Assembly (NCBI GenBank): GCA_002699025.1
Contig: PABA01000062.1
Coordinates: 1-36,199 of the forward strand
DNA: 36,199 bases
Source of the DNA: Sandaracinus sp.
Lineage (GTDB): Bacteria; Myxococcota_A; Polyangia; Polyangiales; Houyiibacteriaceae
Direction of reading: 5' to 3'
Under the pieces are notes generated by a model. The model was not told where the DNA came from. It saw nothing but the letters and a program-made list of their open reading frames with translations, and did not search any database. Shown piece by piece: positions 2,328-35,961 of the stretch; the stretch's first letter is position 1, and each line of letters opens with the position of its first letter. The translations under genes and the position numbers were made by a program.

Positions 2328-2768
2328 ATGATCCTCGCCGTGAGTGACGCCGAGACCACGCCCGCGCGGCTCGTTCTCTACGACGGGGTGTGCGGGCTCT
2401 GCGACAAGTCCGTGCAGTGGCTGCTCGACAAGGACGAGGCGGGGGCGCTCCGCTTCGCGCCGCTCCAGGGCGAGACGGCCCAGGCGATCCTGGCGCGCCA
2501 CCCGGAGGTCCCCGAGGGGCTCGACAGCGTGCTCTTCGTGGAGCGCGAGGGCGGCGAGGAGCGCGTGCGCTGGCGTTCGCGCGCCATCTTCCACATCTGC
2601 CGGCATCTGACCGGCGGCTGGCGCGCGCTCTCCTGGTTCCGCTTCCTGCCGGCCTTCCTCACGGACCTCGGCTACCGGCTGATCGCGAAGATCCGCTACC
2701 GCATCTGGGGCAAGCTCGACCAGTGCCGCGTGCCCACGCCGGACGAACGCGCGCGCTTTCTGCCCTGA
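2328..2768 (+). CDS. DCC-family (DUF393) thiol-disulfide oxidoreductase-like protein
   Basis: A 146-aa protein with the family signature YDGVCGLCDKSV: Asp19, then Cys22 and Cys25 in a CxxC arrangement at the end of a short beta strand. The C-terminal half carries the usual aromatic-rich stretch (WRALSWFRFLPAF) and ends in the basic IRYRIWGK segment common in the family. DCC proteins have a thioredoxin-like fold and are predicted to act on protein thiols; their substrates are mostly unknown. The start is the ATG at 2328. A GTG at 2340 is an in-frame alternative, since the conserved domain only begins near residue 14. It follows the DUF2723 gene by 20 bp, a probable two-gene unit. Confidence 0.85.
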   Translation: MILAVSDAETTPARLVLYDGVCGLCDKSVQWLLDKDEAGALRFAPLQGETAQAILARHPEVPEGLDSVLFVEREGGEERVRWRSRAIFHICRHLTGGWRALSWFRFLPAFLTDLGYRLIAKIRYRIWGKLDQCRVPTPDERARFLP

Positions 2769-3099
2769 AGCGACAACGGGGCGAAGGCGCCCTGCCGACC
2801 CCTGCCCGGTCGGGCCGAACGCGCACCTCGAGTCCTCCGCTCGACCTCCGTGGGAAGTGCCCGTGCCCGTGCTCCCGTCCGTTCCGGGAAGCCGTTTCTC
2901 TCGAGCCGCTCGTCGACCTGCGGGCATGGGCAGGGGCACGGGTGAGAGCGACGCGTCTCTGGCCGCGTCCATGCCCGTCTCGGCTCTCGTCGACCTGCGG
3001 GCAGGGGCAGGGGCACGGGCAGGGGCATGGGGGCGCGACGGAGTCGCGCCGGCGATCGCTCCCCTGGTCATTCGCGCGCGGGGCGGGCATCGTCGGGGT
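2769..3099. repeat. Intergenic hexamer-array region A
   Basis: No gene fills this gap. It holds three array pieces: GTGCCC-type hexamers at 2858-2874, then G-rich inverse arrays at 2922-2942 and 2998-3031. A degenerate copy of the dispersed core (ends CCGCTCGACCTCCGTGG) is at about 2800-2852. Both G-rich arrays are preceded by CTCGTCGACCTGCGGGCA, so the right half is a tandem duplication. The C-rich array can pair with either G-rich array. The region separates two same-strand genes, so termination after the DCC gene is plausible. Confidence 0.8.
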
Positions 3100-3939
3100 A
3101 TGAAGCTGCGGCGCTTCGCCGACCCGGAGGCGTTCCTGAAAGCGGGGCGCGCGCACCTGCTCGCGGAGGAGGCGCGCACGGGCCTGCTCCACGGGATCGT
3201 CCAGCAGCTCGCGCGCGGCGCGCATCGGCGCGAGGAGGCCTACCTCGCGCTCCTCGAGGACGGCGGCGAGGTGGTCGGCGCGGCCGTGCGCACACCGCCC
3301 TGGAAGCTGGTGCTCGGGCCGATGAGCGACGCCGGGATCGAGAAGGTCGTCGCGGACCTGCTCGAGGCAGACCCGACGCTCCCGGAGGCGATGGCGCCAG
3401 CGAGCACCTTCGCGCCCTTCCTCGCGCGCTGGACGGCGGCCACGGGAGCGCGGGCGACGGCGGGCATGGCGCAGAAGCTCTACCGGCTCGACGCCGTGAC
3501 GCCGACGGAGGCGCCCGGGCGCATGCGCCACCCCCGGGACGCGGAGCGGGGCCTCCTCGTCGAGTGGGCGAACGGCTTCCATCGCGACATCGGCCTGCGG
3601 CTCCACGGCTCGCTCGACACGATCATCGACGCGCACCTGCGGGAGCAGACCCTCCGCGTCTGGGAGGACGAGAGCGGCGCGCCCGTGAGCATGGCCGTCG
3701 GGGCGCAGCGCGGACCGACGAGCGCCCGCATCGCCTTCGTCTACACGCCCCCCGAGCAGCGCCGCCGCGGCTACGCGGGCGCCCTCGTCGCCGCCATCGC
3801 CGAAGAGCAGCTCGCCAAGGGCCGGAGCTTCGTGACCCTCTTCACCGAGCGCGAGAACCCGACCTCGAACCACATCTACCAGCAGGTCGGCTTCCGCTTC
3901 GTCGAGGACTTCGAAGAGGCGCGCTTCTCGTACGGGTGA
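3100..3939 (+). CDS. GNAT-family N-acetyltransferase (two-domain)
   Basis: A 279-aa protein whose last 70 residues are a clear GNAT domain. The acetyl-CoA pyrophosphate loop is QRRRGYAG at 220-227, preceded by the beta-4 strand RIAFVYT and followed by NPTSNHIYQQVGF, the usual motif B. The first 140 residues look like a degenerate GNAT-like half, as in many bacterial two-domain acetyltransferases. By family it transfers an acetyl group from acetyl-CoA to an amine; the substrate cannot be read from sequence. The ATG at 3100 is the start that avoids the upstream repeat array; a longer frame runs back to 2857 but is made of array DNA. Confidence 0.85.
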   Translation: MKLRRFADPEAFLKAGRAHLLAEEARTGLLHGIVQQLARGAHRREEAYLALLEDGGEVVGAAVRTPPWKLVLGPMSDAGIEKVVADLLEADPTLPEAMAPASTFAPFLARWTAATGARATAGMAQKLYRLDAVTPTEAPGRMRHPRDAERGLLVEWANGFHRDIGLRLHGSLDTIIDAHLREQTLRVWEDESGAPVSMAVGAQRGPTSARIAFVYTPPEQRRRGYAGALVAAIAEEQLAKGRSFVTLFTERENPTSNHIYQQVGFRFVEDFEEARFSYG

Positions 3940-4034
3940 GGGGCGCTCGAGGCGCGGGGCACAGGTGGCACTCTCGGAGGGCGGGCTACTCGAGCCGGCT
4001 GGTACGCCCAGCCGACGTGTTCACGGTACTGGGC

Positions 4035-4112
4035 ACGGGGATGGCCCCGGAGATCGAGCGAAGGACTCGTCCGGCCCGTTTCCCAACCGGGCAGGGAAAA
4101 GGGCACGGGTGT
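4035..4112 (-). repeat. Dispersed core plus hexamer unit, reverse orientation
   Basis: Read on the minus strand, this segment is hexamer-like DNA (CCCGTGCCC...TTCCCTGCCC), then a CGGTTGGGAAACGG core, then a CGCTCGATCTCCGGGG end. It is a diverged copy of the units at 5200-5385 on the other strand, from which it differs at scattered positions. It lies between the GNAT gene and the lipid kinase gene, both on the plus strand. Confidence 0.75.
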
Positions 4113-4185
4113 TTCGGCCGCGTGATGCGCGCTCGACCCTGCCGGCGGGCTCATGAGCCCTTCGCGGCGTAGACTCCCGCTCGCC

Positions 4186-5190
4186 ATGGGCCGGGTGGGC
4201 ATCATCATCAACGCCAACGCGCGGAAGAACCGGAAGTCGCCGGGGCTCGACGCGCGCCTTCGGGCCTCGCTCGGGAGCGAGGGCGAGGTCGTCCTCACGC
4301 GCTCGCTGGACGAGCTGGGGCCCGCGCTCCGTCGTCTCCTCGACCGGGGCGCGGAGGTGCTGGTCGCCTCCGGCGGCGACGGCGCGCTCCACCGTATGGC
4401 CAACGAGCTGCTCGCCATGCAGGAGGCCGGCGAGCTCGCCGAGCTGCCGCCGCTGGTGCCGACGAACGGGGGCACCATCGACTTCGTCGCCAAGAAGGTC
4501 GGCGTCGGCGGGGACGCGGAGGCGATCGTCGCGCGCCTCGTCGCGGCGCTGCGCGGCGGGGCCCTGCCCGTGCGCGAGGTCGAGAGCCTCGAGCTCCGCG
4601 GCGTGGAGCGCGTGGGTGGCGAGGAGCGCACCTTCCGACGCGTGGGCTTCGCGCTGGCCGCCGGGGGCGTGGGGCAGCGCTTCTTCGAGCAGTACTACGC
4701 GCTCGAGGATCCGGGCCCGGCGGCGATCGTCGGCGTGGTCGCGCGGGCGGCGGCGGCCCACGCGGCGCTCACGCTGCGGCTCCCGGCGCCGGCGGGGCTC
4801 CGGCGGGCCGAGCAGATCTTCGCGAAGACGCCGGCGCGCGTGCGCGTCGACGGGCGGGAGGTGCCGGCGGCGGCGCACGGGGCGCTCCACGCCGGGGCCT
4901 TCGACGTGGACCTCGGCGGCGTCTTCCGCGTCTTCCCGCTGGCCGCGGCGCCGGGTCGGCTGCACTTTCACGCGGGCGACGTCGGGCCCTGGGGCATCAT
5001 CCGCAGCCTGCCGCGCATGGTCGCCGGCAAGACGCTCCGGGCCGAGGGCCTGGTGGAGAAGGCGGGCGAGGAGATGCTCATCGAGGCGACCGAGGGCCCG
5101 CTGAGCCCGGTCGTCGACGGCGAGTGTTACGAGGGCGTGCTGCGGCTCGAGGTGCGACCGGGGCCGCGGATCGCGATCGGCGCCCCGTAG
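4186..5190 (+). CDS. Diacylglycerol kinase catalytic-domain (lipid kinase) protein
   Basis: A 334-aa protein with the DAGK catalytic fold. It opens with VGIIINANARKN (4-15), the nucleotide-binding strand and loop, then VASGGDGALH around 60-69 with the GGDG motif at 63-66, then PTNGGTIDFVAKK near 92-104. Members phosphorylate lipids such as diacylglycerol or sphingoid bases with ATP. The C-terminal half is the beta-sandwich lobe. The canonical proline/glycine loop (GTxNDFA) reads GGTIDFVA here, a modest variation. I chose the ATG at 4186 because the domain begins three residues later; an ATG at 4153 is in frame but adds only a basic extension. Confidence 0.85.
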   Translation: MGRVGIIINANARKNRKSPGLDARLRASLGSEGEVVLTRSLDELGPALRRLLDRGAEVLVASGGDGALHRMANELLAMQEAGELAELPPLVPTNGGTIDFVAKKVGVGGDAEAIVARLVAALRGGALPVREVESLELRGVERVGGEERTFRRVGFALAAGGVGQRFFEQYYALEDPGPAAIVGVVARAAAAHAALTLRLPAPAGLRRAEQIFAKTPARVRVDGREVPAAAHGALHAGAFDVDLGGVFRVFPLAAAPGRLHFHAGDVGPWGIIRSLPRMVAGKTLRAEGLVEKAGEEMLIEATEGPLSPVVDGECYEGVLRLEVRPGPRIAIGAP

Positions 5191-5195
5191 GCCCG

Positions 5196-5445
5196 ACGAC
5201 CCCGTGCCCGTACCCGTGCCCCTGCCCTTGCCCGGTTGGGACACGGCCCGGGCGAATCATCCGCTCGACCTCCGGGGCCACACCCGTGCCCCTGCCCCTG
5301 CCCGGTTGGGACACGGCCCGGACGAATCATCCGCTCGACCTCCGGGGCGACCCACCCGTGCCCGGTGGGGAAACGGCCCGGACGAGCCCTCTCGAACCGC
5401 TCGTCGACCTGCGGGCACGGGCATGGGCAGGGGCACGGGCACGGG
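5196..5445. repeat. Hexamer-array region B: three tandem units plus inverse array
   Basis: Between two convergent genes. A run of C-rich hexamers is followed by a core containing CGGTTGGGACACGG, repeated at 5233 and 5303 (period 70), with a third, shorter copy at 5363 (period 60). The core ends CATCCGCTCGACCTCCGGGG in the first two copies. The region closes with a pure G-rich array at 5413-5445 (six GGG runs spaced by CAC, CAT or CA), preceded by CTCGTCGACCTGC as in region A. The C-rich and G-rich parts are complementary, so a large stem-loop could form in either transcript and act as a bidirectional terminator. Confidence 0.85.
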
Positions 5446-5471
5446 AGGAGCGGTCGCTTCGCTTCCCGCTC

Positions 5472-6173
5472 CTAGGACCCCCCGTACACCGGCACGATCG
5501 CCCCCCGCGTCGTCGCGTTCCGCGGCGACGCCAGGAAGACGATCGTCTCCGCCACGCCCTCCACCTTGGGCCAGGCGTCGAAGTCCGCGTCGGGCATGGC
5601 CTCGCGGTTCGCCGGCGTGTCCATGATCGACGGCGCCACGGCGTTCACCCACACGCCCGCGTCGCGGAGCTCCTCCGCCAGCCCGAGCGTCAGCCCGGCC
5701 ACCGCGGCCTTCGTCGGCGCGTAGGCCGCCACGTTCGGCGCCGGCACGAGCGCGGGCTTCGCGGAGACGTTCACGATCCGCCCCCCCTCGCCCGCCTCCT
5801 TCATGCGCCGCGCCGCCGCCCGGCAGCAGAGCCAGCAGCTCGCCACGTTCATCCGCCACATGCGCTCGAGGTCCTCGAAGCCGGCGTCCACGATCGGGCC
5901 CCAGACGAACCCCCCGGCGACGTGCACGCTCGCCCAGGGCGCCGCGCCGATCCCCTCGTAGAACGCCTCGACCTGCGCCTCGTCGGCGAGGTCCACGCCC
6001 TCCTTCACGTGCAGCCGCTCGTCCTTCAGGTCGGCCAGCCGCTTCGCGTCCTTCTCCCCGAAGGCCGGCACGTGCACCTCGGCGTTGCGCGCGAGCAAGA
6101 GCTCCACGACGGCGTGCCCGAGGAAGCCGCCGCCTCCCGTGACGACGACGTGGCGTTCGGCGAAGTCCTTCAT
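5472..6173 (-). CDS. Short-chain dehydrogenase/reductase (SDR)
   Basis: A 233-aa NAD(P)-binding protein. The Rossmann glycine motif is TGGGGFLG at 12-19, and the catalytic set is visible as Asn109, Ser137, Tyr151 and Lys155 (YAPTK). The order and spacing match classical SDRs of about 250 residues. The C-terminal TRGAIVPVYGG resembles the usual SDR end. Substrate unknown. The ATG at 6171-6173 overlaps the TGA of the upstream gene (TGATG), so translational coupling is likely. A GTG one codon upstream is the only nearby alternative. Confidence 0.88.
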   Translation of the reverse strand: MKDFAERHVVVTGGGGFLGHAVVELLLARNAEVHVPAFGEKDAKRLADLKDERLHVKEGVDLADEAQVEAFYEGIGAAPWASVHVAGGFVWGPIVDAGFEDLERMWRMNVASCWLCCRAAARRMKEAGEGGRIVNVSAKPALVPAPNVAAYAPTKAAVAGLTLGLAEELRDAGVWVNAVAPSIMDTPANREAMPDADFDAWPKVEGVAETIVFLASPRNATTRGAIVPVYGGS

Positions 6174-6953: not shown

Positions 6954-7400
6954 ATGCCCACCGTGCGCACGGAGATCGAGATCGACGCCTCGCCCGAGGT
7001 CGTCTGGCAGGTCCTCACGGACCTCGGGACCTACGCCGACTGGAACCCGGTCGTCATGGCGCCGCGCTGCCGGGGGCCGCTCGGGCCCGGCGCCGACTTC
7101 GACTTCCGCCTGAAGCTCGGCTTCCTCGAGGCACCGATCGAAGCGGTGATCGTGCGCGCCGACGGGAGCGAGCTCCGCTGGGAGGGGCCGCGGCGGAAGC
7201 TGCAGAAGCCCCTCGCCCGCGGCTCGCACTACTTCCGCCTCGAGCCGATCGGCGAGGGCCGCACCCGCGTCGTGCACGGCGAGGAGTTCGGGGGGCCCCT
7301 CTTCGCGCTGCCCTGGCGCGTGCTCGGCCCGCGCATCGGCCGCGCCTACGACCAGCTCAACGCCGCCCTGAAGCGCCGCGCCGAGAGCGTCGAGGGGTAG
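6954..7400 (+). CDS. SRPBCC-family (START/polyketide cyclase-like) protein
   Basis: A 148-aa protein beginning VRTEIEIDASPEVVWQVLTD, followed by YADWNPVV: the first strand, helix and W-N-P signature of the SRPBCC fold. The C-terminal long helix is RAYDQLNAALKRRAES. These proteins form a hydrophobic cavity that binds lipids or other nonpolar ligands; some are enzymes, most are uncharacterised. Length is typical. The start ATG at 6954 lies 4 residues before the first strand. It is divergent from the MBL-like/SDR pair, so a shared 67-bp promoter region is expected at 6887-6953. Confidence 0.85.
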   Translation: MPTVRTEIEIDASPEVVWQVLTDLGTYADWNPVVMAPRCRGPLGPGADFDFRLKLGFLEAPIEAVIVRADGSELRWEGPRRKLQKPLARGSHYFRLEPIGEGRTRVVHGEEFGGPLFALPWRVLGPRIGRAYDQLNAALKRRAESVEG

Positions 7401-7483: not shown

Positions 7484-7910
7484 CGTAGACGTGCTCGTGC
7501 TCGTGCTCGGCTGCCCGGAGAGCATCGAGACGGAGTGCACGGGGGGAGCTCCTCGCCCAGCGCGCACGAGATCGACGGGGGGGGCCGATTCGAACACCCG
7601 GAGCGGCGAGCTCTCTGCCTCCGGAGTTGCTCCAGACGAATCGAGCACGAGCACGAGCACGAGCACGAGCCGAGCACGAGCACGATTCGTCTGAAGCAAC
7701 TCGACCTTCGTCAGAATCGCTCTCCGCGGATCGACGTTCCGCACGCCCAGCGCTCACGAGATCGACGAGAGGGGCCGATTCGAATACCCGGAGCGGCGAG
7801 CTCTCTGCCTCCGGAGTTGCTCCAGACGAATCGAGCACGAGCACGGACGAGCACGGACGAGCACGGACGAGCACGGACGAGCACGGACGAGCACGGGCAC
7901 GGGCGGAGAG
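7484..7910. repeat. GAGCAC-type array region with 190-bp-spaced duplication
   Basis: Between convergent genes. GTGCTC hexamers at 7488-7509 are complementary to (GAGCAC) runs at 7642-7685. A block of about 98 bp at 7558-7655 is repeated with few changes at 7748-7845 (offset 190). The first block is closed by a 20-bp inverted repeat, 7624-7643 against 7683-7702 with one mismatch, which encloses a hexamer run. The second block runs into a perfect decamer array, GCACGGACGA five times at 7841-7890, then GCACGGGCACGGGC. Only non-coding structure is seen; the long frames here are products of the repeats. Confidence 0.85.
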
Positions 7911-7914
7911 CGAA

Positions 7915-8832
7915 CTAGAAGTGGTGGTGCGGCCTGGGCGCGTCGACCGTGCGCATCTCGAGCGTCGCGTGATCGACCTCGAAGCGGTCGTGGAGCAGCT
8001 CGCGGAGCCGGTCGGCGAGCGCGTTCGCCTCCGCCAGCGTGCCCGCCGTGCAGCAGACGACCGCGCTGAGCACGGTCTGGCCCGAGTCGAGCTGCCAGAA
8101 GTGCAGGTCGCGCACCTCGGTGACGGCGTCGTCTTCCCGGAGCGCGGACTCGATGGCGTCGACGTCGGCCCCGGCCGGCGCCCGCTGGAGCAGGATGAGC
8201 GTCGCCTCGCGGAGGAGGGGCAGGCTCGCGGCGAGGATGAGCAGCGCGATGAGCACCGACGCGATGACGTCGATGAGCGTCCAGCCGGTCAGCACGATGA
8301 CGACGGCCGAGGCGACCGCCGCGACGCTGCCCAGCGCGTCGGCGATCACGTGGAGGAACGCGCCCCGCACGTTGATGGAGCGGTCGTCGCTCCGGTGCAG
8401 GAGCCACGCGCCGACGAGGTTCACGATCAGGCCGATCACGCCGGCCGCGAGCACCGGCCAGCCGGCGACCTCGGGGGGCGTGTCCATGCGCTCGAAGGCC
8501 TCGACGAGGATGAGCACGACGATGACCACGAGGCTCAGGCCGTTGGCCAGGCCGCCGATCACGGGCAGGCGGCGGAGCCCGAAGGTGTAGGCGCTCGCGG
8601 GGACGCGCGTGCGGAGGCGCTGGGCGAACCAGGCGAGCAGGAGCGAGCCGACGTCGGAGAGCATGTGGCCGGCGTCCGAGAGGAGCGCGAGCGAGCCGCT
8701 CCACCAGCCCACGACGGCCTCGACCACCATGAAGATGGCGTGCAGCACGAGGCTCACGCCGAGGGCGCGGGTCGCCGCGTCCACGGTGTGCCCATGTCCG
8801 TGCCCGTGCCCGTGGCCCATGGGGGAGGACAT
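7915..8832 (-). CDS. Cation diffusion facilitator (CDF) metal efflux protein
   Basis: A 305-aa member of the CzcD/ZitB-like CDF family: six hydrophobic segments, then a cytoplasmic domain of about 90 residues. The metal-site motifs are complete, HMLSD at 56-60 in the second membrane helix and HVIAD at 161-165 in the fifth. A His-Gly run (GHGHGHGHGH, 6-15) at the N-terminus and HHH at the C-terminus are typical extra metal-binding tails. Expected role: proton-coupled export of Zn2+ or a similar ion from the cytoplasm. The His-Gly run is encoded by the same hexamer that forms the intergenic arrays. The start ATG at 8830-8832 is 45 bp from a divergent gene. Confidence 0.93.
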   Translation of the reverse strand: MSSPMGHGHGHGHGHTVDAATRALGVSLVLHAIFMVVEAVVGWWSGSLALLSDAGHMLSDVGSLLLAWFAQRLRTRVPASAYTFGLRRLPVIGGLANGLSLVVIVVLILVEAFERMDTPPEVAGWPVLAAGVIGLIVNLVGAWLLHRSDDRSINVRGAFLHVIADALGSVAAVASAVVIVLTGWTLIDVIASVLIALLILAASLPLLREATLILLQRAPAGADVDAIESALREDDAVTEVRDLHFWQLDSGQTVLSAVVCCTAGTLAEANALADRLRELLHDRFEVDHATLEMRTVDAPRPHHHF

Positions 8833-8877
8833 AGCAGGCGCGGAGCCGGGGCGCCGGGCCCGTGATACGCTGAGGGA

Positions 8878-9657
8878 GTGCTGCCGAGCGACGGCGTGAT
8901 CCGCTGGCTCTTCGAGGCGTGGGCCTGGCTCCAGCGTCGGCGCGGCGGGCCCGACGAGTTCCGCCGCGCCGCGCTGATCACGCCGACCGGTGAGGACTTC
9001 CCCGTCGACGCGGCGCTCGAGGGGGAGGAGCTCGCCGAGGACTACTTCCTCTTCGTGCACGAGCACGCGCGCCTGCCCGACTGGCCCCTGGTACCGGTGC
9101 CCGAGCGGCTCGCGCCGGACGAGGGCGAAGGCGCGGAGGCGGAGACGGAGACGGAGCCCGACGAGGCCGAGGTGCTGGTCGACGAGGACGAGCTGCCCGT
9201 CCCCTACGACCTGCGCCTGCTCGAGGATCCGCGGCTGCTCGTCGCCGCCCAGGCGCGGGGCGTGGGCCACTGGTTCGCCTACGCGGAGCCCGACCCGGCG
9301 CCGGCCGCGCCGCCCGATCCGGAGGCCGAGCTGCTCGCGGACCTGGCGAGCGTCTTCCTCGGCTTCGGCCTCTTCGCCGCGCACGCGGCGCGTCCGCGCG
9401 TCCGGGCCGGGCTGCTCCCCGGAGCCTGGCTCGACCCCGCGCTCCGCGTGGTGACGATGAACGAGCACGAGGTCGCCTTCGCGCTGGCGCTCTTCGGCAT
9501 CCTCCGGGAGGTGCCGGACGGAGACATCGAGCCCTGGCTCACGCCGAACGCGCGGGTCTTCCACCGGAAGGCGACGAAGCACATCCTGCGCTTCCACGGC
9601 CGGGACCTGGCGAGGCTCCGCGGAGAGCGACCGAGGCTCCACGGCCCCTACCGCTGA
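8878..9657 (+). CDS. Uncharacterised 259-aa protein
   Basis: I do not recognise a family. The protein starts at a GTG (8878) preceded by GAGGGA, a reasonable ribosome binding site. Residues 1-70 contain a Trp-rich helix (VIRWLFEAWAWLQRRR) and an aspartate/glutamate-rich stretch. Residues 80-105 are a low-complexity acidic linker (EGAEAETETEPDEAEV). The C-terminal half has alternating hydrophobic strands and helices and the segment MNEHEVAFALALFGILREV. No signal peptide and no membrane segment is evident, so it should be cytoplasmic. Divergent from the CDF exporter by 45 bp; I see no further evidence that they work together. Confidence 0.75.
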   Translation: MLPSDGVIRWLFEAWAWLQRRRGGPDEFRRAALITPTGEDFPVDAALEGEELAEDYFLFVHEHARLPDWPLVPVPERLAPDEGEGAEAETETEPDEAEVLVDEDELPVPYDLRLLEDPRLLVAAQARGVGHWFAYAEPDPAPAAPPDPEAELLADLASVFLGFGLFAAHAARPRVRAGLLPGAWLDPALRVVTMNEHEVAFALALFGILREVPDGDIEPWLTPNARVFHRKATKHILRFHGRDLARLRGERPRLHGPYR

Positions 9658-9660
9658 GAG

Positions 9661-10046
9661 GGCCCCGTGCCCGTGGCCGCGGGGGGGGCATGAGGTGCGC
9701 GACAACCCGTGCCCGTGCCCTTGCCCTTGCCCGTGCCCTTGCCCGTGCCCGCGGAGGGACGGGCATGAGGCGCGCTGCCGCGCGACAACCCGTGCCCGTG
9801 CCCGTGCCCTTGCCCGTGCCCGCGGAGGAACGGGCATGAGGCGCGCTGCCGCGCGACAACCCGTGCCCGTGCCCTTGCCCTTGCCCGTGCCCGCGGAGGG
9901 ACGGGCATGAGGCGCGCTTCCGCGCGGTCATCATCGTCTCCGGGCACGGGCACGGACGGGCGCGGGTGGGTCCGGCGCGTGGGGGTCGCTCCCGCCTCTT
10001 CGACCCCACGGGCACGGGCAGGGGCACGGGCACGGGCACGGGTGGG
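9661..10046. repeat. Hexamer-array region C: 71-bp tandem units before the helicase gene
   Basis: A unit made of CCCGTGCCC/TTGCCC hexamers plus a core reading GCGGAGGGACGGGCATGAGG and then GCGCGCTGCCGCGCGACAA is repeated at 9751, 9822 and 9893 (period 71), with a diverged first copy near 9679. Hexamer composition differs slightly between units. The region ends in an opposite array of six or more GGG runs at 10010-10046, which stops 21 bp before the GTG start of the helicase gene. The C-rich units can pair with the G-rich end. No gene fits here. Confidence 0.88.
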
Positions 10047-10067
10047 CTCTTGTACTAAGGTCTGGCC

Positions 10068-16907: not shown

Positions 16908-17657
16908 ATGAGGAAGAACCCGCCGCGGCCCGGCGTAGGCCATCCCGTGAACCGCGCCCTCCCCGGCCTCGTCGCCGCGCTGGCGCTCGGCTGCTTCACC
17001 GCCGAGCCCGCTCCCATGGACACCACCGTCGTCGTGGAGCACACGCAGACGCCCTCGCAGCCGCCGCCCCAGCAGCCGCAGCAGGTGGTGATCGAGCAGG
17101 CCGAGCCGCAGCCGCAGCAGGTCTTCGTCGACCCCGCGCCGGCGCCGCAGCAGCCCGTGGTGGTGCAGGCGCAGCCCCAGCCCCAACCGCAGCAGCCGCG
17201 GATCGTCCAGAACACCCCGACTGGCCCGCGCGTCATCCAGGCCAACACGGGCGGCGGCGCCCAGTGCACGAACACCTGCCGCTACGCCAACGACGGCGAG
17301 TGCGACGACGGACGCCCCGGCTCCCACACCAGCCTCTGCTCCTACGGCAGCGACTGCAACGACTGCGGCGTGGGCGGCGCCCCGATGACCGGCGGCGCCT
17401 GCATGAACACCTGCCGCTACGCCAACGACGGCGAGTGCGACGACGGACGCCCCGGCTCCCACACCAGCCTCTGCTCGGCCGGCTCGGACTGCGGCGATTG
17501 CGGCCCCGTGGGCGTGGCCTACCGCCGCCCGGGTCAGGGCGGCCAGTGCACGAACACCTGCCGCTACGCCAACGACGGCGAGTGCGACGACGGACGCCCC
17601 GGCTCCCACACCAGCCTCTGCGCCTACGGCAGCGACTGCAACGACTGCGGCGTCTGA
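16908..17657 (+). CDS. Lipoprotein with three near-identical cysteine-rich repeats
   Basis: A 249-aa protein. The signal peptide ends in LALGCFTAEP (lipobox LALGC). Residues 45-115 are Gln/Pro-rich and probably extended. Three copies of a domain follow, each with the pattern NTCRYANDGECDD...C...GSDC.DCG and seven or so cysteines. In all three, 23 consecutive residues are identical and so are their 69 bases (17271-17339, 17406-17474, 17553-17621). The DG/DD-rich pattern suggests calcium and disulphide stabilisation, as in Notch-repeat-like modules; this is inference. Surface location is likely. Start ATG at 16908. Confidence 0.82.
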   Translation: MRKNPPRPGVGHPVNRALPGLVAALALGCFTAEPAPMDTTVVVEHTQTPSQPPPQQPQQVVIEQAEPQPQQVFVDPAPAPQQPVVVQAQPQPQPQQPRIVQNTPTGPRVIQANTGGGAQCTNTCRYANDGECDDGRPGSHTSLCSYGSDCNDCGVGGAPMTGGACMNTCRYANDGECDDGRPGSHTSLCSAGSDCGDCGPVGVAYRRPGQGGQCTNTCRYANDGECDDGRPGSHTSLCAYGSDCNDCGV

Positions 17658-19392: not shown

Positions 19393-20250
19393 CTACGCGC
19401 CCGCGTCGTCGTCGCCGTCCGAGTCGTCGCCGTCGCCCTCTTCGTCCTCGTCGTCGTCCGAGTCGGCCCGCTGCAGCTGGATGCCGAGCGTCGTGAAGAG
19501 GTTCACGTCGAGCCGCGCGAGCGCCTGCGGCGGGTCGCTGTCGAAGCGCATGCGCAGGCCGAAGCTGAGCGCGAGGCCGCTCTCGTGGCTGAGCGTGAGG
19601 GCCGCCTCCTCGGCGACCCGGTAGTCGGAGAACTCGTCGAAGCGCGGCTGCACGTAGACCGTGTTCGTGAACGAGAGCATCTCGTCGGCGCGCACGGTGA
19701 ACGTGAAGTAGCTCGTCCAGCGGTGGTTCGTGGAGGCCTGCGGGTGCGGCTCGCCCTCGGGGATCGCGCTGTCCTGGAAGACCTCGCGCTCGAGCATGTA
19801 GCCCGTCGCCGCGTGGGCGGAGAAGACGTCCGGATCGTCGTGGAGCGTGAGGCGCGCGCCGGCGCCGCCGAGGGCGCGAACGCGGAGGAAGAGGAAGGAG
19901 TCGTACTGGGCCTGCGCGAAGACCTCGGAGGCGACGCGCTCGTGCCAGGCGGCGGTCCAGCGCATGTGGGCGAAGGCGCGGCTCAGGTAGGGTGACTTCG
20001 ACGCCTCGGCGTAGCTGGCCGAGTAGTTGGTGAGGAAGTGGTGCTTGCCGCGGTTGACGCCGGTGAAGATGTTCGCGCTCGCCGAGAGGAAGTCGATGTT
20101 GCCGCGCATCCAAGTGAGCGCGCCGTCGAGGCGGAGGTAGGGGCCCTCGTCGGTCGCGCTGGCGCGAAGGCGCTCGGCGTTCACCTGCGCGCGGCCGGAC
20201 GCGGGCGCGAGGAGGGCGAGGACGAGGGCGGCGAGAACGAGACGAGCCAT
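19393..20250 (-). CDS. DUF481-like outer-membrane protein with acidic tail
   Basis: A 285-aa protein. A signal peptide (LVLAALVLALLAPASGRAQ) is followed by alternating amphipathic strands with aromatic residues, as in DUF481 beta-barrel proteins (TWMRGNIDFLSASANIF, HHFLTNYSASYAE, RWTSYFTFTVRADEMLSFTN). The barrel pattern ends near residue 262. It is followed by about 25 residues that are almost entirely Asp, Glu, Ser and Gly. This is unusual, because outer-membrane barrels normally end in an aromatic residue needed for assembly. The start ATG is at 20248-20250. A longer frame to 21570 exists but is antisense to the MpaB gene. Confidence 0.72.
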   Translation of the reverse strand: MARLVLAALVLALLAPASGRAQVNAERLRASATDEGPYLRLDGALTWMRGNIDFLSASANIFTGVNRGKHHFLTNYSASYAEASKSPYLSRAFAHMRWTAAWHERVASEVFAQAQYDSFLFLRVRALGGAGARLTLHDDPDVFSAHAATGYMLEREVFQDSAIPEGEPHPQASTNHRWTSYFTFTVRADEMLSFTNTVYVQPRFDEFSDYRVAEEAALTLSHESGLALSFGLRMRFDSDPPQALARLDVNLFTTLGIQLQRADSDDDEDEEGDGDDSDGDDDAGA

Positions 20251-20376
20251 CGCGCCCGATGGTAGGGGCGAGGGTGGGCTGAGCCGAAGTTCGCCGCGCC
20301 GGGAGGGGGTGGCTCCCCCGGTCCCGCGGGCACGGGCAAGGGCAGGGGGTTCGGTCCCGGTGGTAGGGTGCGGACC

Positions 20377-26137: not shown

Positions 26138-26159
26138 GCCCCGAGAGGATACAAGAAGA

Positions 26160-26440
26160 AGACCCCTGCCCGTGCCCGTGCCCCTGCCCGTGCCCGTCCG
26201 GATCACGGGCCCCGCGCGCAGCACACACGCTTCGAAGCACACCCGTGCCCGTGCCCCTGCCCGTTCGGATCACGGGCCCCGCGCGCAGCACACCCGCTTC
26301 GAAGCACGCCCCTGCCCCAGCTCGGTCACGCGCCAGACGCTCCGCCACACGTGGCTCCAACGCGCCAGACCTCCCGACGATCACGAACGGGTCTTGGCCC
26401 GAGCGGGCACGGGCAGGGGCACGGGCATGGGCACGGGGAG
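26160..26440. repeat. Hexamer-array region D: 77-bp tandem units plus inverse array
   Basis: C-rich hexamers at 26163-26195 lead into a core starting CGGATCACGGGCCCCGCGCG, which recurs at 26199 and 26276 (period 77) and continues through GCACAC(A/C)CGCTTCGAAGCAC. A third partial hexamer run starts near 26309. An opposite array of GGG runs closes the region at 26405-26438. It lies between the end of the second kinase gene and the start of the glutaredoxin-like gene, both on the minus strand. A terminator-like role after the kinase gene is plausible. Confidence 0.87.
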
Positions 26441-33551: not shown

Positions 33552-35102
<1,551 letters not shown>

Positions 35103-35338: not shown

Positions 35339-35782
35339 ATGAGCGACGCGCTGCCCGTCTACTGGACCCCTGGCTTCACCGACGTCTTCATCGACGCGCT
35401 CTCGAAGGACCCGGCCTTTCAGAAGGCGTCGCGGAGCCTCGAGCAGACGATCGTGCTCCGCTGCCTGGACACGCCGCGCGGGACGGACGTGCTCGTCGCC
35501 TACCAGATCGATCGCGGCCGCGTGAGCTGCGCGGAGTTCGCCGAGGAGCCCGCGCCCTCGTCGCTCCGCGACCGGCCCTTCGACAAGGCGACGACGCTCG
35601 GCCGGAGCACGGCGCCCTTCGACTTCTGGGTGAAGCTCGACAAGGGCGAGGTCGGCGTGATCGACGTGATCACGTCGCCGGACTACCAGCTCGAGGGGTC
35701 GAAGCTGAAGATCCTCCGGTACATCAAGGCGTTCACGCGTATGGGCGATGTCGCGAAGGAGCTGCCCAAGCGCTACGCCTGA
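35339..35782 (+). CDS. Small SCP2-like protein, unknown function
   Basis: A 147-aa protein beginning MSDALPVYWTPGFTDVFIDAL. The second half (FDFWVKLDKGEVGVIDVITSPDYQLEGSKLKILRYIKAF) resembles the strand-helix end of SCP2 sterol-binding-like domains, with DYQLEGSKLKIL in the position of the family's conserved turn and helix. If correct it would bind a lipid in the cytoplasm. The match is by pattern only. No signal peptide. The last codons, including the TGA stop, form the left arm of a strong inverted repeat. Confidence 0.68.
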   Translation: MSDALPVYWTPGFTDVFIDALSKDPAFQKASRSLEQTIVLRCLDTPRGTDVLVAYQIDRGRVSCAEFAEEPAPSSLRDRPFDKATTLGRSTAPFDFWVKLDKGEVGVIDVITSPDYQLEGSKLKILRYIKAFTRMGDVAKELPKRYA

Positions 35783-35817: not shown

Positions 35818-35961
35818 CCCCGTGCCCCTGCCCCTGCCCGTGCCCGCAGGTCACCCAGTTCGTCGAGCTGTCCGAGCACGTTCGGCCTCGTACGCCCCGT
35901 GCCCCTGCCCGTGCCCCTGCCCCTGCCCGCAGGTCACCAAGCTCGTCGAGTTGTCCGAGTG
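35818..35961. repeat. Hexamer-array region E: 83-bp direct units
   Basis: C-rich hexamer runs at 35818-35845 and 35895-35928 are each followed by GCAGGTCACC(C/A)A...TCGTCGAG(C/T)TGTCCGAG, with CAGGTCACC recurring at a period of 83 bp. Read on the minus strand the core reads GACCTGCGGGCA then the G-rich array, the same link as in regions A and B. Confidence 0.85.

Follow-up and report, generated by a model that had tools for sequence, protein, structure and literature searches.

Several of the gaps between predicted genes in this stretch of Sandaracinus DNA hold short GC-rich words in tandem, and the question raised by the locus is what kind of repeat they belong to: simple sequence tolerated between genes, the remains of a mobile element, or a signal kept in place at gene borders. 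The window, by which the whole stretch of 36,199 nucleotides is meant, is a contig (C73) of a fragmented 9.24-Mb assembly of 238 contigs (GC 74%). In the first-pass annotation, a dispersed intergenic family was proposed, built from a core of about 45 bp joined to a variable array of hexamers. The repeats are real and genome-wide, and their structure is well supported; their function, together with copy movement, protein binding and the blocking of transcription, we infer. Taken together, the fixed length, the fixed direction and the spread make a so far unnamed border element seem likelier than random simple repeats.

The repeat unit

The dispersed unit is about 47 bp long and consists of CCC-(NTGCCC)5 followed by the linker GCAGGYCGAMGRG, the consensus derived from aligned units being RAA-CCC-GTGCCC-STGCCC-STGCCC-CTGCCC-STGCCC-GCAGGYCGAMGRG, with the dispersed linker reading GCAGGYCGA. 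From a 1.57-Mb sample of the Sandaracinus genome, 152 arrays of at least three hexamers were collected, with five hexamers in 107, four in 20, three in 21 and more than five in 4. The base N depends on the position of the word, being mostly G in the first and second, G or C in the third and fifth, and mostly C in the fourth; 46 distinct sequences were encountered among 106 five-word arrays, their differences confined to N. All 27 fixed positions are perfect in 93 of the 115 units that were collected with up to four mismatches. The outer flank is A-rich (AA within 5 bases in 53 of 93 units), and no common outer end was found among the aligned units.

Within the window, matches to STGCCCSTGCCC with at most one mismatch number 69, as against 2.8 ± 2.0 in shuffled sequence. 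The window unit has 136 matches in the genome, the copy at 5400-5445 recurs at 90-98% identity at more than 20 other genomic places, and exact full five-word units amount to 182. Density figures refer to the 1.57-Mb sample, which was chosen partly around arrays, a choice of which the orientation and conservation results are independent. Several contigs of the assembly end in arrays and Ns are present in one cluster; an array is found no more than about 250 bp from an end of contigs C5, C15, C28, C157 and C167. It is thus likely that arrays interrupt the assembly and that their number is underestimated.

The relation between core and array, as first described, has to be inverted: the five-hexamer array is the constant part, its hexamer number does not vary freely, and the core is a local and variable spacer. 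The core is present at the places first given for it, in degenerate form at about 2800-2853, in reverse at 4035-4112 and three times in tandem within 5228-5390; pairwise identities are 84-91%, and three neighbouring gaps of C73 have it in common. When core and linker were searched separately, as the first-pass annotation had advised, the linker with its array proved to be dispersed in the genome, whereas the exact core strings CGGTTGGGACACGG and CGCTCGACCTCCGG were confined to the window contig within the 1.57-Mb sample; a diverged copy of two spacer units lies at C166:72440-72551 (76% identity). The core is a local spacer with slight dispersal and is no marker of the family. The linker preceding the G-rich arrays was recovered as CTCGTCGACCTGCGGGCA, starting at 2909, 2986 and 5400 (previously given as 2903, 2980 and 5399), and, on the minus strand, the related GACCTGCGGGCA comes after the arrays at about 35846 and about 35929. 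Beyond these, strict inward orientation and further array-bearing gaps of the window (9565-10067, 26138-26426, 20328-20348 and 35820-35929) were recognised, and all features are collected in Table 1.

Table 1. Arrays, linkers and spacer copies along the window (contig C73)
Position	Strand	Feature	Gap and context
2800-2853	+	Degenerate copy of the local spacer	Gap 2769-3099; resembles the copy at C166:72440
2909-2942	-	Linker (2909-2924) and three-hexamer minus array (2922-2942)	
2986-3031	-	Linker and five-hexamer minus array	Directed into the gap; next gene 68 bp further on
4035-4112	-	Reversed, mostly degenerate spacer copy with hexamer remnants	Gap 3940-4185; 84-89% to 5212-5390
5202-5234	+	Plus array with one hexamer substituted	By the stop of the left gene, convergent gap 5191-5471
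5228-5390	+	Three tandem spacer units in steps of 70 bp and 60 bp (TRF)	Plus hexamers at 5283-5304 and 5354-5363
5400-5445	-	Minus array of five hexamers with its linker, the clearest instance of the unit	By the stop of the right gene
9706-9893	+	Three tandem plus arrays (7, 5 and 5 hexamers), period 71-83 bp	Left part of gap 9565-10067
9941-10042	-	Minus hexamers (9941-9953) and five-hexamer array (10010-10042)	Right edge of gap 9565-10067
20328-20348	-	Solo three-hexamer minus array	Right edge of gap 19996-20367
26163-26263	+	Pair of plus arrays in tandem, of 5 and 3 hexamers	Left edge of gap 26138-26426
26405-26437	-	Five-hexamer minus array	Right edge of gap 26138-26426
35820-35940	+	Two tandem plus arrays with GCAGGTCACC linkers	3' of the gene ending at 35782

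Other tandem sequence is also present in the window. The gap that separates gene 6954-7400 from gene 7915-9564 holds further short words (7642-7685 and 7837-7896), namely CGAGCA and six perfect copies of ACGAGCACGG; a very C-rich tandem repeat of 139-141 bp with 82-89% matches occupies the contig end (1-334); and tandem repeats of 135 bp (17256-17653) and 96 bp (34650-34915) lie inside predicted genes, the latter in a gene matching DUF4215.

Placement and orientation in the gaps

Though about 85% of the DNA is coding, predicted coding sequence (genes having been called with a simple home-made codon model) holds only 8 of the 152 arrays. The outermost array lies at a median of 23 bp from the gene, and arrays point inwards into the gap. 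In all 41 single-orientation gaps scored, plus arrays were nearer the left edge or minus arrays nearer the right, and all 16 two-orientation gaps were ordered +..-, such that the rule holds in 57 of 57 scored gaps (p ~1e-17); plus always precedes minus across the 72 array-bearing gaps. This inward pointing is irrespective of gene strand and is seen in convergent, tandem and divergent gaps alike, which carry arrays in 28 of 137, 40 of 424 and 4 of 168 cases, respectively (convergent versus divergent, p = 2e-7).

A number of simpler explanations were discarded. An early impression that arrays follow stop codons on the sense strand had suggested a terminator restricted to the 3'-UTR; this was abandoned since, in tandem gaps, the 5' side of the downstream gene is used as often as the 3' side of the upstream gene, by which a simple 3'-end terminator is disfavoured. 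A general C/G skew of gap edges is out, as array-free gaps displayed no clear base skew at their edges, and so is a replication-strand bias, given that a single gap may carry opposite orientations at its two edges. A coding (Pro-Cys) reading was rejected because the periods are not multiples of three, the frame relative to the upstream stop is distributed 25/18/15, and no TGT was seen in place of TGC. Canonical terminators composed of a hairpin and a T-tract were detected at merely 3 of 531 gene ends in a strict scan of the 1.57-Mb sample, and at none in 2700-5600; with T-tract terminators nearly absent, other signals must do that job.

Constraint on the hexamer

In order to avoid picking intact arrays, copies of duplicated spacers were located first and the 18 bp preceding them were then read. 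Differences beside such spacers amounted to 31 of 1080 positions (2.9%) in TGCCC, a maximum, since arrays that stop early are counted in, 147 of 2160 (6.8%) in the spacer, and 96 of 216 (44%) at N, a figure perhaps inflated by hexamer gain and loss; the contrasts of TGCCC and of N with the spacer are both highly significant. TGCCC is thus held, with fewer differences than the adjoining duplicated spacers, while the wobble base N turns over faster than the spacer. The fast N can be explained by slippage and word exchange, by which alone the steadiness of TGCCC cannot, and the conservation of TGCCC points to purifying selection.

Gain and tandem amplification

Neighbouring arrays within a gap recur with periods of 34-161 bp, mostly 60-130 bp, and the spacers between them are often near-copies, with the hexamer number unequal in 14 of 24 tandem pairs. 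A spacer is sometimes common to gaps separated by a few kb (C73, C28), while a seed-and-extend comparison revealed the interiors of different gaps to be mostly non-homologous. Comparison by descent was made for two gaps of this genome against family relatives. The 250-bp gap C4:52092-52341, bearing both arms, corresponds to an array-free gap of about 41 bp in G066 (L266) and is short in G080; the gap 3' of dnaN holds three arrays here and none in the other family members inspected. Gain in this lineage is the best reading of both. The earlier proposal of a family with spread followed by local expansion is borne out by dispersed units, tandem copies, neighbouring gaps with a common spacer, and array-free orthologous gaps in relatives. 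As for the target duplication sought at empty sites, none could be made out at either locus, the comparison of C4:52092-52341 with its counterparts in G066 and G080 included.

The arrays at C162:13568-13899 and C52:13862-15066 are flanked by an inverted repeat, TTGCTTCAGACGA / TCGTCTGAAGCAA, which is common to these two distant gaps and partly present at C1:13748, possibly a second repeat family around arrays.

Arrays in related genomes

Confinement to this one strain had been named as an outcome that would speak against a spreading family, and the result is divided. The linker version is indeed found in this genome only, the linker TGCCCSTGCCCGCNGGYNGA having 65 copies here and 0 in the 144 other genomes of the order, none of which belongs to its genus, whereas the hexamer array itself occurs in 34 of the 145, with a patchy distribution and with longer pure hexamer arrays in some relatives. 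A stricter form of the linker, searched against wider genome contigs, gave scattered single matches in unrelated taxa that were judged to be due to chance. The full five-word unit was present in 17 of 284 genomes of a phylum sample, this genome being the richest. The inward rule extends to relatives: in G041, G054, G090, G007, G127, G136 and G040 pooled, a count that leaves out G125, it holds in all 11 two-orientation gaps and in 20 of 25 with a single orientation.

G125, a member of another family, has the opposite polarity, with GGGCAC..GTGCCC pointing outwards in 9 of 9 two-orientation gaps. There, the (GTGCCC)5 arrays form the subterminal inverted arms of a dispersed element measuring some 250-370 bp. 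Its long copies match the query at 76-88% identity, interior included, and its ends read CTAGAGCGCGCCACCC and, on the other strand, CTAGGGGGCGTCCCTA, in imperfect inversion. At most sites CTAG borders the element on either side, and it frequently provides the TAG stop of the adjoining gene; in the congeners G146 and G130, these genes are present and the element is absent. By these features, it is a MITE-like mobile element. Some copies also carry a (CTCGT)n expansion.

Proposed function and alternative explanations

The reading that we tentatively place first, at slightly less than an even chance, is that of a lineage-specific, oriented intergenic repeat which has spread non-autonomously and whose array is maintained for polar recognition, most likely as a directional transcription boundary. 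The unit would reach the edge of a gap by non-autonomous copying, and tandem amplification would then take along part of its spacer. The array would be retained as a polar, sequence-specific site, bound by a putative protein, in which TGCCC recurs five times at intervals of 6 bp and the wobble base is free. Transcription leaving a gene across the border would yield a C-rich RNA, (NUGCCC)5, and transcription approaching a gene a G-rich RNA with G-quadruplex potential, so that the boundary may act by Rho-type loading or by a roadblock of the bound protein. What chiefly argues against a simple terminator is that polarity is reversed in G125 and that arrays in tandem gaps also occupy the 5' side. 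A single array of 33 nt is short for a Rho site, which counts against the boundary reading, and so does, for the spread of the unit, a route of copying that is not displayed in this genome by a TIR, a TSD or a shared interior.

A wider claim, which we regard as a minority possibility, is that the arrays represent a separate class of gene-border element: (NTGCCC)5 with a dedicated protein, strict polarity at gap edges, occurrence in several genera with varied linkers, at times borne by a MITE, and wobble bases that are rewritten far faster than the adjoining DNA.

The arrays could alternatively be the remains of a two-armed MITE-like transposon, with solo arrays having lost one arm, their orientation reflecting the polarity of the element and TGCCC being a repeat bound by the transposase. 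Exactly such a two-armed element exists in G125 and is absent from orthologous gaps of G146 and G130, and both arms occur as +..- in 16 gaps of the present genome. The arms of one gap are, however, no more alike than those of different gaps, be it in or outside the array (outer 6.75 vs 7.33, inner 7.44 vs 8.25), for which reason a MITE with pair-specific ends was rejected for this genome and the repeat is not filed as one. Interiors are mostly non-homologous and a common outer end is absent; no TIR beyond array and linker and no homologous interior across copies were found here, both being present in G125. Ongoing constraint on TGCCC in every resident copy would also be unexpected for dead element ends, and we consider this explanation unlikely.

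Selection might instead act on the folding of one strand, (GGGCAN)5GGG, into a G-quadruplex that would pose a polar block to polymerases. All arrays with three hexamers or more fit G3N3G3N3G3N3G3, a G4 is included in the fold of 53 of 60 units once such structures are permitted, and the A-rich outer flank (53 of 93) places T residues after the G-rich strand. Yet the loop bases C and A (the T and G of TGCCC) are nearly as conserved as the G tracts and the third loop base alone is free, whereas pure G4 selection would free all loop bases; this is improbable as the basis of the constraint. A BIME-like site for DNA gyrase or a nucleoid protein where supercoiling is positive would accord with the ranking of convergent over tandem over divergent gaps, as for REP families (PMC3733652), and with units of opposite orientation within one gap, but the unit is non-palindromic and the genome has no RAYT (Y1_Tnp), and we deem it very unlikely. 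Neutral microsatellites, that is, slippage-made repeats tolerated in the gaps of a very GC-rich genome, would suit the unequal tandem pairs, the other hexamers in gaps (CGAGCA, GGGCTC) and the longer pure arrays of relatives, but the broad copy number and free orientation of a VNTR or simple sequence repeat were not found (five in 107 of 152; 57 of 57 oriented), and the sharp mode at five, the fixed linker and a TGCCC more conserved than the spacer while N is free leave this already disfavoured reading very unlikely.

Very GC-rich bacteria of this group seemingly lack ordinary T-tract terminators, and a common polar border element would be a concrete candidate for transcription insulation. The arrays also offer a natural case of intergenic repeats that are gained, amplified and, as their conservation suggests, kept under selection, with the same array employed in unrelated lineages (G125 and the family of this genome).

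Comparison with known repeats

The findings do not support assigning the repeat to MITE, REP/BIME or CRISPR. Neighbouring spacers are near-copies of one another and not unique as in a CRISPR. The arrays gave no match in Rfam, and the literature on myxobacterial hexamer repeats, GTGCCC arrays and MITEs yielded no description of such a design; within the searches made, the statement of the first-pass annotation that no named repeat of this kind is known therefore stands.

The STRR heptanucleotide repeats of heterocystous cyanobacteria are intergenic, species-specific, 7-nt words in variable number, and the repeat described here resembles them in its short tandem words, intergenic location and species specificity; we know of no orientation rule or fixed linker in STRR.

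REP/BIME sequences are GTAG- or CGTC-tagged palindromes found mostly between convergent or tandem genes (PMC3733652), and the likeness to them extends to short length, high copy number, the same preference for convergent and tandem gaps, opposite orientations within a gap and tandem amplification. The identity was nevertheless rejected for lack of a 20-40-bp palindromic unit, a tag and a RAYT: the conserved part of array and linker is a direct hexamer repeat; CGTC (GACG inward) lies within 18 nt in merely 44 of 151 units, with neither GTAG nor CGTC consistent; and a search for the RAYT that goes with GTAG REPs (Y1_Tnp, PF01797) gave no match in this genome (G000), as compared with two above the cut-off in G054 and one in G066. 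What the present repeat has in their place is the five-hexamer array, the free wobble base and the inward rule.

BrickBuilt, a minisatellite-containing MITE of Porphyromonas gingivalis (PMC4596501), likewise carries a tandem repeat in a dispersed intergenic element with leader and tail, and consists of 23-nt repeats without spacers in 19 copies with inverted ends (PMC4596501). The repeat described here differs in being built from 6-nt words fixed at five and in doing without inverted ends, the MITE-like carrier being found in G125.
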